Source of the DNA: an uncultured Pelagibacteraceae bacterium
Lineage (GTDB): Bacteria; Pseudomonadota; Alphaproteobacteria; Pelagibacterales; Pelagibacteraceae
Length of the DNA stretch: 64,000 nucleotides
Assembly: GCA_902581585.1 (NCBI GenBank)
Contig: CACHPB010000002.1
Coordinates: 1-64,000, forward strand
Reading direction: 5' to 3'
Shown here: one piece after another, positions 2-5,507 of the stretch
Layout of the letters: each line of letters opens with the position of its first letter
Position numbering within the stretch: position 1 is the stretch's first letter
Program-made: the position numbers and the translations under genes
Notes under the pieces: model-generated
What the model was told of the DNA's origin: nothing
What the model saw: only the letters and a program-made list of their open reading frames with translations
Databases searched by the model: none

Positions 2-667
2 AAGAATGCAGAATATAATTATGCCGAACTTTTATTAAAAGCATTCTTAATAAGTTATCCAAATCATAGTCTATCTGGAGATGCTCAGTATTGGCTTGCT
101 GAAACATTCAGAAATAGACAAATGTATGATGAGGCAGTTTATGCATACTTTCAAAGTTATGTGAAATATCCAAATAGTGAGAAAGCACCAATAAGCCTTC
201 TAGGGTTAGGACAAACTTTAATTAAAACTGGTGATAAAGAACAAGGCTGTGAAAGAATTGATAGTGTCAAAAAAGAATATCCTAATGCATCAAAATATGT
301 TCTTCAAAAAGCTAAATATTCAATGACTATTCATAACTGTAAGGAGACCCTAGAAATTTTAAAATCTCCAAAGAAGAAATTATCGCTCTCTACAGAGGAT
401 AATCTTAAGGCCAGAATTTATACCTGTTGGAGCATACCGATGGGTTTGCCCTATGATAAAAAAGATTTAAAAGTAAGAATAAGACTAAAAGTTAGTGATA
501 ATGGAGCTGTATTAAATAACAAAATAGTTGATTATGAAAAAATGTCAGATCCAATTTATAAAATGGTCGCTGAAAGTGTCATAAGAGCTTTAAAATTATG
601 TGAGCCTTTTGAAGTTTTAAAAGGTCAAGAAGTAATTCTTAATTTTGATCCAAAAGAAATGTTTTAA
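2..667 (+). CDS. cpoB: CpoB (YbgF) tail fused to a TolA C-terminal domain, 5' partial
   Basis: The gene enters from the left edge and is open from base 2, so its start is not in the window. Bases 2 to about 340 encode the TPR repeats of CpoB, including the family pattern SGDAQYWLAETF and a typical CpoB end with a Cys near 338-340. CpoB is the periplasmic Tol-Pal coordinator of envelope constriction. Instead of stopping, the frame continues through a short linker into what looks like a complete TolA C-terminal domain (about 380-667), recognised by LSLSTEDNLKARI, CWSIP, the DPIYKMVAESVIRAL helix and the ending NFDPKEM. TolA and CpoB are normally separate proteins of the tol-pal operon. I infer a fusion, or a recombination or assembly junction. 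The stop codon directly abuts the convergent gene that ends at 668. Confidence 0.75.
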   Translation, partial: KNAEYNYAELLLKAFLISYPNHSLSGDAQYWLAETFRNRQMYDEAVYAYFQSYVKYPNSEKAPISLLGLGQTLIKTGDKEQGCERIDSVKKEYPNASKYVLQKAKYSMTIHNCKETLEILKSPKKKLSLSTEDNLKARIYTCWSIPMGLPYDKKDLKVRIRLKVSDNGAVLNNKIVDYEKMSDPIYKMVAESVIRALKLCEPFEVLKGQEVILNFDPKEMF

Positions 668-1639
668 TTACCTTTGATATTCAACGAATTTTTTAAGAGA
701 CTTATTTAGAAATTTATCATATCTGATGCCGCTATTTTTATATTTTTTCTGATTTAAAAGAGAATGGTTCATTTTAAAGTCATAAGAGGGTTCAAAAAAG
801 AAAGGAACAGAGAGCCTTTTTTGCTTATTCCACAATACCCTATGATTTGTTGCTTTAAACTTACCCTTGCTTAAATATTCTAGCGCTCTACCTGTATTCA
901 CTACCAAGGCATTTTTATTGAAAGGAACATCATGCCATTTTTTTGTTTTCCGGTTTTGAACTTGAAGACCACCTTTTTTATTTTGATATAAAACTGTGAA
1001 AATACCACTATCAACATGTGTTTCACATCCAAGTGCGACCCCATCTTGTTTTGAAATTTCAACTGGTTTAGATTGATTTGGGTAATAATTAAATCTTAAA
1101 GTGCTAAGTGTTTTTAATCTCGAAAAGGCTTTTTTTGATAAATTGGGGTTTTTTTTATAAAGTTTTATAATACTTTTAAAAAGAGTTTCGCTTAAATTAA
1201 ATAAATTTTCAAAATAATCTGCTAGTTTTGCAATAGATTGCTTATTAAATGACCTCTCTATACTTAAATGCTCGATGTATTGATTTCTAGTTTTTTTTGA
1301 AAAATCCTTTGTTACTTTTAAGTCACCTAAGTCTAATCCTTCCTTTCCATTAACATCATTTGGAAAATATCCTCTATAAATATTTTTACTCTTTTTATTC
1401 CATTTCTTTGGAGCCAATTTAAATTTATTATTCTTATTTGATTTAAAAAAATTTTCTCCGATTTTGCATACCTTATTTATTTTATTTAATTTAATTCCAT
1501 GACCGACTATTTGAAAAAAACCAACCTCAACACAAGCTTTTTCAATTTCCCTTGTAATTTTTAATGTTACTTTTGAATCAAAGTTATTTTTTAGAATAGG
1601 ATTTATATTTATTGTTGGAATATAATTTTTTCTTATCAT
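668..1639 (-). CDS. 2-oxoglutarate/Fe(II) oxygenase, isopenicillin-N-synthase family
   Basis: The 323-residue protein has the two-domain layout of IPNS-like oxygenases. An N-terminal DIOX_N-type segment (about 8-110, with VGFFQIVGHGI) precedes the jelly-roll core. The iron triad is visible as H208-x-D210 and H266, and the 2OG-binding R275-x-S277 (RLS) follows. Such enzymes hydroxylate or cyclise small molecules, and the substrate cannot be read from sequence. The start codon overlaps the stop of the upstream DMT permease by 4 bp, so it is the last gene of the minus-strand operon that begins near 7098. The protein is unusually rich in Lys and Asn even for this genome. Confidence 0.8.
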   Translation of the reverse strand: MIRKNYIPTININPILKNNFDSKVTLKITREIEKACVEVGFFQIVGHGIKLNKINKVCKIGENFFKSNKNNKFKLAPKKWNKKSKNIYRGYFPNDVNGKEGLDLGDLKVTKDFSKKTRNQYIEHLSIERSFNKQSIAKLADYFENLFNLSETLFKSIIKLYKKNPNLSKKAFSRLKTLSTLRFNYYPNQSKPVEISKQDGVALGCETHVDSGIFTVLYQNKKGGLQVQNRKTKKWHDVPFNKNALVVNTGRALEYLSKGKFKATNHRVLWNKQKRLSVPFFFEPSYDFKMNHSLLNQKKYKNSGIRYDKFLNKSLKKFVEYQR

Positions 1640-4208: not shown

Positions 4209-5036
4209 TTAATTTGGATGATCACCCTCGACTGCAATCCTGTCCATAACTCTTTCATGGCCCAATCCTCTGCCAGGAAAAAAATCAGTCAAACCTTGGT
4301 GAAGGGTGCTTCTATTGTCCCAAATTGCTACAGCATTTTCAGTCCATTTAAATCTGCATGTAAAATCAAGTCTTTCTTGATGTAAAAATATTTCATTTAA
4401 AATATCTGAACTTTCATTTTCATCTAAATCTAAAATTCTTTTAGTGTACATTGAATTTACATACAAAATTTTTTTTCCTGTTTCAGGATGAGTTCTAACT
4501 ACTGGATGGGAATTTGAATATTCATCTAGATTACCATTCCCTTCCATTTCCTTATATGCATCAACAAATGCTGCTGCCCCTAGAGAGCTATGAATGGCTC
4601 TCTTATCATTAACCTTATCTTTAATTTTATCGCTTAATGTGTCGTAAGCGATTTCCATATTAGAAAACATTGTATCTCCACCAACTGGTGGTACTTTAAT
4701 TGATCTTAAGATAATTACTTTTGTAGGTTTAGGATTATAACTTACATCAGTATGCCAAGTTTCACCCCATTGTCTTTTTTCTTCTGGAGCTTTAATTATT
4801 CTTAATATTTCAGGATAATCTTTTCTTCCTTTAACATAAATATGTCTTTCTAATGGACCAAAATGTTTTGCTAAATTTATCTGTTCTTGCGATGTAATAT
4901 CTTGATCTCTAAAGAAAAGAGCTTTATGTTCTAATAATAGATTATTTATATTCTTCCAATTTTCTAAAGAGCTATCTTTTAAATCGATACCTCTTACTTC
5001 TGCACCTAATGCACCTGATACTAATTTAATTTCCAT
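4209..5036 (-). CDS. TauD/TfdA family 2-oxoglutarate dioxygenase
   Basis: The 275-residue protein has standard TauD length. The Fe(II) triad is H95-x-D97 (WHTDVSY) and H246 (LHQG), and the late Arg region (GRGLGHERVMDRIAVEGD) supplies the 2OG salt bridge. The N-terminal LGAEVRGIDLKD and the FFRDQDIT segment are also family hallmarks. These enzymes hydroxylate a carbon next to a heteroatom and release sulfite, glyoxylate or an amine. Taurine itself is not implied, because the neighbours are a betainyl-CoA thioesterase-like gene 3 bp upstream and a GMC alcohol oxidase directly downstream. A role on a quaternary amine is possible but inferred. Confidence 0.85.
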   Translation of the reverse strand: MEIKLVSGALGAEVRGIDLKDSSLENWKNINNLLLEHKALFFRDQDITSQEQINLAKHFGPLERHIYVKGRKDYPEILRIIKAPEEKRQWGETWHTDVSYNPKPTKVIILRSIKVPPVGGDTMFSNMEIAYDTLSDKIKDKVNDKRAIHSSLGAAAFVDAYKEMEGNGNLDEYSNSHPVVRTHPETGKKILYVNSMYTKRILDLDENESSDILNEIFLHQERLDFTCRFKWTENAVAIWDNRSTLHQGLTDFFPGRGLGHERVMDRIAVEGDHPN

Positions 5037-5039
5037 AAT

Positions 5040-5507
5040 TTATTTTTTTAACCTACCAGATAATTCTAAATTTTCAGACTTAAAACTTGATTTATTTTCG
5101 TCAATAAATTCACCCATAATTTTAAGCTTATCTTCCTCAAATTCTGTGACCTTTCTTTTCCCCAAGTCAATATAAAGGGACAAACTCTCCATAGTAGCAG
5201 CAAGAGTTTTAGTTTCTTTTTCGTACATTTCACATTTTAAATGTAATCTTTTTTTATCGTGATCAAAATGTGTGCAATATACCTCTACTTCTTGATTTTC
5301 TTTAACCTCATTATTGTAAGTGGTTCTAGTTTCAACAACCATAGTACTTCTCAGATTTGATTTTGCATTTTCACCACCCATTTGAAATTTATTAAGCATC
5401 GTTTCCCATGCTTGATCAAAGATTAAGATATAATAAGCCATATTCATATGTTCATTATAATCTGTCCACTCTTTGATTATTTTTCTAGTTGCTAGATGAT
5501 ACGACAT
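5040..5507 (-). CDS. cdhB: Hotdog acyl-CoA thioesterase, probable betainyl-CoA thioesterase
   Basis: The 155-residue protein has a 4-hydroxybenzoyl-CoA thioesterase-type hotdog fold. The active-site motif is W-T-D-Y-N-E-H-M-N near residues 14-22, with the Asp/Asn-and-His pattern of the family, and FDQAWETML forms the long helix. In known carnitine catabolism CdhB hydrolyses betainyl-CoA to glycine betaine, and this domain is found fused to or beside carnitine dehydrogenase. Here CdhC and CdhA lie divergently only 1.6 kb away, which supports the assignment. It sits 3 bp from the CitE-like gene upstream. A generic thioesterase role is the alternative. Confidence 0.7.
   Translation of the reverse strand: MSYHLATRKIIKEWTDYNEHMNMAYYILIFDQAWETMLNKFQMGGENAKSNLRSTMVVETRTTYNNEVKENQEVEVYCTHFDHDKKRLHLKCEMYEKETKTLAATMESLSLYIDLGKRKVTEFEEDKLKIMGEFIDENKSSFKSENLELSGRLKK

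Follow-up and report, generated by a model that had tools for sequence, protein, structure and literature searches.

In its known form, TolA domain III caps an anchored and energised transducer. TolB binds this domain by strand addition at the third strand (PMC4339652, PMC12204202), an interaction that Tol function requires (PMC4339652). A TolA-type SHLS motif has been described for the motor (PMC12204202), and CpoB of Escherichia coli binds both TolA and PBP1B (PMC4458516). Tol-Pal domains are also found recombined in one protein, as in PorE of the Bacteroidetes, a CpoB-TolB-Pal fusion, and TolB-Pal fusions have been described as well (PMC12204202). PorE resembles the locus presented here in this recombination but differs from it in that its description in PMC12204202 includes no TolA domain III; nor are exported proteins carrying a TolA domain III named in that description. 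Hypervariable regions of SAR11 genomes are described in PMC2217521, the main text of which leaves TolA unmentioned, and a limited search of the open literature, judged by titles and the opening of abstracts, returned no report of a TolA-CpoB fusion or of TolA domain III on exported proteins.

The DNA analysed here, called the window, is a stretch of 64,000 nucleotides from the SAR11 assembly of an uncultured Pelagibacteraceae bacterium (G000; 1.26 Mb, 29 contigs, 82% complete), the base 1 of which is also base 1 of contig C2. On the forward strand, positions 2 to 667 translate as one stop-free frame of 221 codons, open at the 5' end and devoid of a visible start. Since the start of the frame lies off the contig end, these positions hold the 3' fragment of a gene and not a whole protein. 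CpoB and TolA modules are genuinely joined in frame in this fragment, and together they most likely represent the tail of an accessory exported protein located at a variable slot. The corresponding features of the window are as follows:

2..667, + strand: 3' fragment (221 aa) of what is most likely an accessory exported protein, "gene B", delimited by the frame, the contig edge, the slot and the cassette comparison
2..346, + strand: CpoB/YbgF-type TPR domain, residues 1-115 (TIGR02795, 2XEV fold match, cpoB identity)
347..388, + strand: interdomain linker, residues 116-129 (third-position GC, model)
389..664, + strand: TolA domain III-like domain, residues 130-221 (identity to genus tolA, conserved residues, model, fold matches)
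668..1639, - strand: 2OG-Fe(II) oxygenase, convergent with the fusion and forming the right-hand border of the insertion (PF03171, 85 bits; sister genome G005 collinear from 668)

With respect to the first half, the NCBIfam profile TIGR02795 (tol_pal_ybgF) matches residues 2-105 with 90.7 bits, over its cut-off of 90.1, the identity to the C-termini of the cpoB genes of the genus amounts to 44-57% among the matches listed, and 2XEV, the CpoB/YbgF TPR domain, occupies Foldseek ranks 1-3 for the model of the window protein. These results bear out the original prediction, in which the end of CpoB had been recognized at this place. The C-terminal TPR domain is common to CpoB/YbgF and to the window protein; however, the visible part of the latter has no N-terminal coil and, whereas CpoB ends soon after the TPR, it runs on without a stop into TolA domain III. 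In addition, the cpoB gene follows pal in the tol operon (in G003 and G012 it lies after pal and before tilS), whereas the window gene lies outside this operon and is followed by the oxygenase gene, its upstream side being off contig C2. The contig C3 of another genome, G004, also starts within cpoB-type sequence, which in G004 is an ordinary cpoB.

From residue ~124-130 on, the window protein shares 36-53% identity with the C-termini of the tolA genes of the genus. Its TolA-like domain, made of elements in the order helix-strand-strand-helix-strand, keeps both conserved Cys residues, the CWS..P motif and the last strand (residues 210-215), with a shortened loop before this strand. The model of the window protein, which was built from two aligned rows and is of modest confidence (mean pLDDT 60, with ~73-85 across most of the TolA-like part), matches 1LR0, the Pseudomonas TolA domain III (VIA Z 10.1, rmsd 11.0), as well as 2X9A (Z 8.5, 3.3 A over 82) and 6S3W (Z 8.2, 2.8 A over 85); no Foldseek match of this model reached E 0.001, and a PDB profile search with the TolA domain III alignment returned no credible match. 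The Pfam family TolA (PF06519) has no match in G000, an absence which weighs little for the window protein since the ordinary TolA of G003 is also devoid of a Pfam match, and TonB_2 matches the TolA half weakly (15.6 bits for a cut-off of 22). The TolA assignment of the second half rests on the identity to genus tolA, the fold and the operon position in relatives, namely G003 and G012, in which tolA lies between tolR and tolB; in G003, TolQ, TolR and TolB all score over their NCBIfam cut-offs. Both the presence of TolA domain III and its in-frame connection to the CpoB end, as originally predicted, are confirmed by these matches and by the single open frame 2-667. Although fold and sequence of domain III are common to TolA and the window protein, the window gene differs from tolA by its location outside the tolQRA operon, with a 2OG oxygenase gene instead of tolB as 3' neighbour. 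No membrane anchor of the TolA kind is seen; if the gene B found on contig C10 (see below) is its front, the protein would be exported by a signal peptide and, as judged by hydropathy, possess no later transmembrane segment.

The window protein was matched by 54 of 61 genomes, only G000 being matched over both halves; all the other matches in this set correspond to one half, mostly ~3 kb apart on one contig. Larger searches of the genus (321 of 399 genomes matched) and of the order (368 of 397) yielded none spanning both halves among the best matches listed, and 20 stretches were matched when genome contigs were searched with this protein, but no match among them was confirmed. The absence of other fusions covers the matches listed, the 61 genomes and eleven re-searched genomes for which all matches were shown. 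Recurrence of the fused protein in relatives, a point raised in the original prediction, stands for its TolA end, since gene B of G476 (see below) ends in TolA domain III, but not for the CpoB-TolA junction, which no other match listed spans.

Apart from the fusion, no tolA, tolB (TolB_N) or cpoB was found in the 82% complete assembly of G000, so that a search for intact copies elsewhere in this genome came back empty. Because the neighbourhood extending from yebC to ftsH is missing from this incomplete assembly as well, the ordinary tol locus is probably just unassembled. The lack of any other tolA, cpoB or TolB_N match would also fit a rearrangement of the cell's own tol genes, by which the window would encode the only, working TolA/CpoB of the cell; the gap-like loss of yebC, ftsH and the rest of their neighbourhood, together with the ordinary tolA and cpoB possessed by G004, which shares its slot arrangement with G005, makes this scenario extremely unlikely. 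An ordinary tandem duplication of the tol operon, previously invoked for the junction, was rejected: no tol DNA lies next to the fusion and, the fusion aside, the tol locus of G003 has only three matches of 36-66 bases in G000.

In ten relatives with the neighbouring oxygenase, collinearity of the DNA with the window starts only at 651-668, at the stop codon of the fusion (665-667), which abuts the stop of the oxygenase gene. The fusion is located at the edge of an inserted island, as had been suspected. The sister genome G005 shows 94% DNA identity beside the fusion, its oxygenase being followed by a luciferase-like monooxygenase operon, and the 2OG oxygenase gene lies beside the luciferase-like gene both in G005 and in G004. 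Since the G005 stretch maps to C10:1265-11263 of G000 with its luciferase end towards C10:1, and the oxygenase starts on C2 at 668, the ends of C10 and C2 face each other and bracket one insertion between the luciferase-like gene and the oxygenase. The first 23 bases of C2, searched elsewhere in G000 for an overlapping contig end, matched only the window itself. Two genes occur on C10 in this interval:

G000 C10:772-1197, - strand, directed at the window: gene A, 141 aa, with one N-terminal membrane helix
G000 C10:2-775, - strand, directed at the window: front of gene B, 258 codons, with a signal peptide, open at the contig end

The signal peptide calls are based on visual inspection and hydropathy, and it is on this basis that gene B is assigned a signal peptide and no later transmembrane segment. 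The signal peptide precedes an N-terminal domain of ~235 aa, for which neither a family match nor a credible PDB profile match was found; the single-sequence model of its G476 counterpart was unusable (pLDDT 29.7). Front and presumed tail of gene B in G000 are distributed over two contigs with the assembly gap between them. Along the luciferase-like operon of C10, an exported 346-aa protein is encoded at 4234-5274 (locus L161), between the gene of a thiamine-PP-type enzyme and the next gene; it has no Pfam match, and no counterpart of its gene occurs there in G005. Three genomes also share a well conserved stretch (GACGACCGATCCCACTTTCGTA...) ahead of the luciferase-like gene (L161:1285-1371, L050:8800-8890 and L169:10730-10860), and Rfam gave nothing at gathering score on these stretches.

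The A-B pair is directly seen in two additional genomes. One relative of the B N-domain was obtained from 234 pattern-matched stretches. The pair of G476 is located on a contig that equals a record of AG-447-M05, an independent genome of an uncultured Pelagibacteraceae. Its genes A and B are adjacent and share 38% (E 6e-36) and, for the B N-domain, 35% (E 7e-37) identity with those of G000, and its gene B consists of 725 aa in one frame from the N-domain to TolA domain III. No TPR match occurs ahead of TolA domain III in this protein, and upstream of domain III it still resembles ordinary TolA (EFEKKELFEPKE, TNKITQDQ), so that a longer piece of the end of tolA seems to have been taken up here. 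In G299 the pair occupies the same slot as in G000, with 87% identity for A and 57% for the B N-domain. A profile of the B N-domain matched, at E 0.01, six of the 356 genomes of the genus with at least 80% completeness, three strongly (G000, G476 and G299) and three marginally (E 9e-4 to 5e-3), and the one marginal match inspected, that of G513, falls in an unrelated frame. The A-B cassette is rare, with strong matches in 3 of 356 genomes. A relationship of the B N-domain to a tandem family of exported proteins of G585 ('GMSIGDSLLDYF') was dropped at a profile-comparison probability of 2.4%. A viral origin was rejected on the absence of relatives in viral contigs, which were scanned with the alignment of the B N-domain, with the window protein and with the G608 protein described below, and on the absence of PHROGs matches for the window fragment and the B N-domain. 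A defence system was similarly rejected, PADLOC giving no match for the window fragment, the B N-domain or gene B of G476, and a weak match for gene A.

The slot, the facing contig ends and the G476 pair suggest that gene B terminates in the window fragment and that its TolA domain III would dock at the Tol-Pal complex, and it is to this reading that we give moderate confidence. Separate tolA and cpoB genes, regarded in the original prediction as the mark of an assembly chimera, do exist in relatives but establish no chimera, because they are ordinary genes located elsewhere and because G476, with the same cassette, ends a large protein in TolA domain III. A chimera of a cpoB fragment and a tolA fragment, created by assembly or binning, would be in agreement with the position at a contig end of a bin 82% complete, with the lack of a relative with the same junction among the matches listed, and with the lack of any match in G005, the nearest relative found. 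It is nevertheless very improbable: the frame is uninterrupted through the two domains and terminates right where the stop of the neighbour lies, the 94% identity of the sister DNA starts right beside the fragment, and both halves are only ~50% identical to ordinary genus genes, to which a chimera of ordinary genes would be nearer. Moreover, the corresponding front of the cassette is independently present on C10, in the slot expected for it, and in G476 this N-domain is likewise connected to TolA domain III.

Other observations count against the assignment to gene B, beginning with the missing TPR match in gene B of G476. The gene B of G299 has no tail and terminates after 265 aa, just beyond the point where C10 ends (residue 258), so that the window part could be a separate gene, encoding a small exported CpoB-TolA protein placed after a short gene B of ~265 aa. 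Short exported SHOCT-TolA domain III proteins do exist and would provide a precedent. However, N-domain and TolA domain III form one 725-aa frame in G476, and the TolA domains III of G476 and of the window pair in the tree, albeit not firmly, and we consider a separate small protein rather doubtful. In this tree, the window TolA part has a long branch (1.23) with gene B of G476 as sister (92/68), followed by the G608 protein (80/74), both with support below the firm mark; a grouping with the tolA pair of G004 and G031 is not rejected (p 0.23). By identity, too, the closest TolA domain III among the rows compared is that of gene B of G476 (52%). The CpoB half has the longest branch of its own tree (0.91) and is unplaced.

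The long branches of both halves, such as occur in a decaying gene, likewise speak against a functional gene B. A remnant of captured 3' ends of the tol operon, devoid of present function, would also explain the shortened loop before the last strand, the G299 protein without the C-terminal part, and the unusual third positions at the junction, where GC reaches 0.41 in the 22 codons of positions 332-397 (a small sample) versus 0.15-0.18 on either side. Decay is improbable all the same, considering that 221 stop-free codons have a chance of ~2e-8 at the base composition of the window (31.5% GC), that both domains display the third-position pattern of coding DNA, and that the conserved Cys residues, CWS..P and the final strand are kept.

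According to the preferred assignment to gene B, a two-gene cassette A-B would have been inserted between the luciferase-like monooxygenase gene and the 2OG oxygenase gene, with gene A encoding a short protein in which a tail follows a single membrane helix at the N-terminus. One expressed gene B would unite the parts on C10 and C2 and comprise the signal peptide, the ~235-aa domain and, across the assembly gap, the CpoB-type TPR and TolA domain III. Because it would have no TolA membrane anchor, such a protein could not act as an energy-coupled transducer. Its TolA domain III would most likely dock by strand addition on TolB, or on another TolA partner, and its TPR on partners of CpoB/TolA, thereby placing the N-terminal domain at the Tol-Pal complex; alternatively, the protein may compete with TolA. 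The original idea that the fusion could tether CpoB to the function of TolA is incorrect or at least incomplete, the fragment being not a whole CpoB but most likely part of a larger exported cassette protein.

TolA domain III is not restricted to this cassette. It occurs outside the tol operon in six of the eleven re-searched genomes (G608, G476, G585, G602, G630 and G253). In G154 and G286 the extra matches stem from ordinary tol DNA present in a second copy, G146 has a 28% match, G004 an ordinary tolA/cpoB pair and G005 no match. In G286, tolA and cpoB occur twice on one contig as mirror images (locus L155, contig C15), probably an assembly artefact. In G602, G630 and G253, a signal peptide is followed by SHOCT, a linker and TolA domain III; the G585 protein is similarly built from a signal peptide, SHOCT (25.6 bits for a cut-off of 27) and TolA domain III. 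Two larger proteins display still other arrangements:

L148:7960-9744 (G608): 594-aa exported protein with signal peptide, TolA domain III, CpoB TPR, charged coil and Trypsin_2 protease
L173:4268-5683 (G055): 471-aa likely lipoprotein with a lipobox (read by eye), 11 MORN stretches and TolA domain III at the end

The RT-protease rows obtained for the G608 protein cover its protease and coil, and the TolA domain III of G055, which belongs to a second family of the order, is 36% identical to that of the window. Together with gene B of G476, these proteins resemble that proposed for the window as exported carriers of TolA domain III without the anchor of TolA, but they differ from it in their partner domains and, for G608, also in module order. 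The window fusion is one of five architectures found here with TolA domain III outside tolA in SAR11 relatives. Because the modules follow each other as CpoB-TolA in the window and as TolA-CpoB in G608, the ends of the tol operon may just as well have been captured several times as joined in a single old fusion.

The best reading of these architectures is that TolA domain III, known from an anchored transducer but found here repeatedly on exported, unanchored proteins in a lineage with streamlined genomes, would be reused as a docking module for Tol-Pal. If this holds true, the Tol-Pal complex would be a landing site for accessory periplasmic proteins. A more specific proposal, which we advance tentatively and regard as possible rather than likely, is that TolA domain III serves in SAR11 as a portable docking tag, and that A and B form a split TolA-like pair in which A provides the anchor and B the tip. 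Unrelated exported accessory proteins carrying the N-domain of gene B, a protease, SHOCT or MORN would acquire it and thereby be brought to TolB, either at the outer membrane or where the cell divides, and the A-B pair would modulate ordinary TolA or compete with it. Since the sequence of its membrane helix contains no histidine, gene A apparently lacks the TolA-type SHLS motif, which counts against the split-transducer part. In SAR11 assemblies, a C-terminus resembling that of TolA is by itself insufficient for calling a gene tolA. Finally, ~13 tandem exported paralogues with a 'DDIRDFQIEGMSIGDSLLDYYS'-like starting motif are encoded in G585 (L153:2628-12418); two of them were scanned and received no Pfam or NCBIfam name, and the SHOCT-TolA domain III gene of this genome is located among them.
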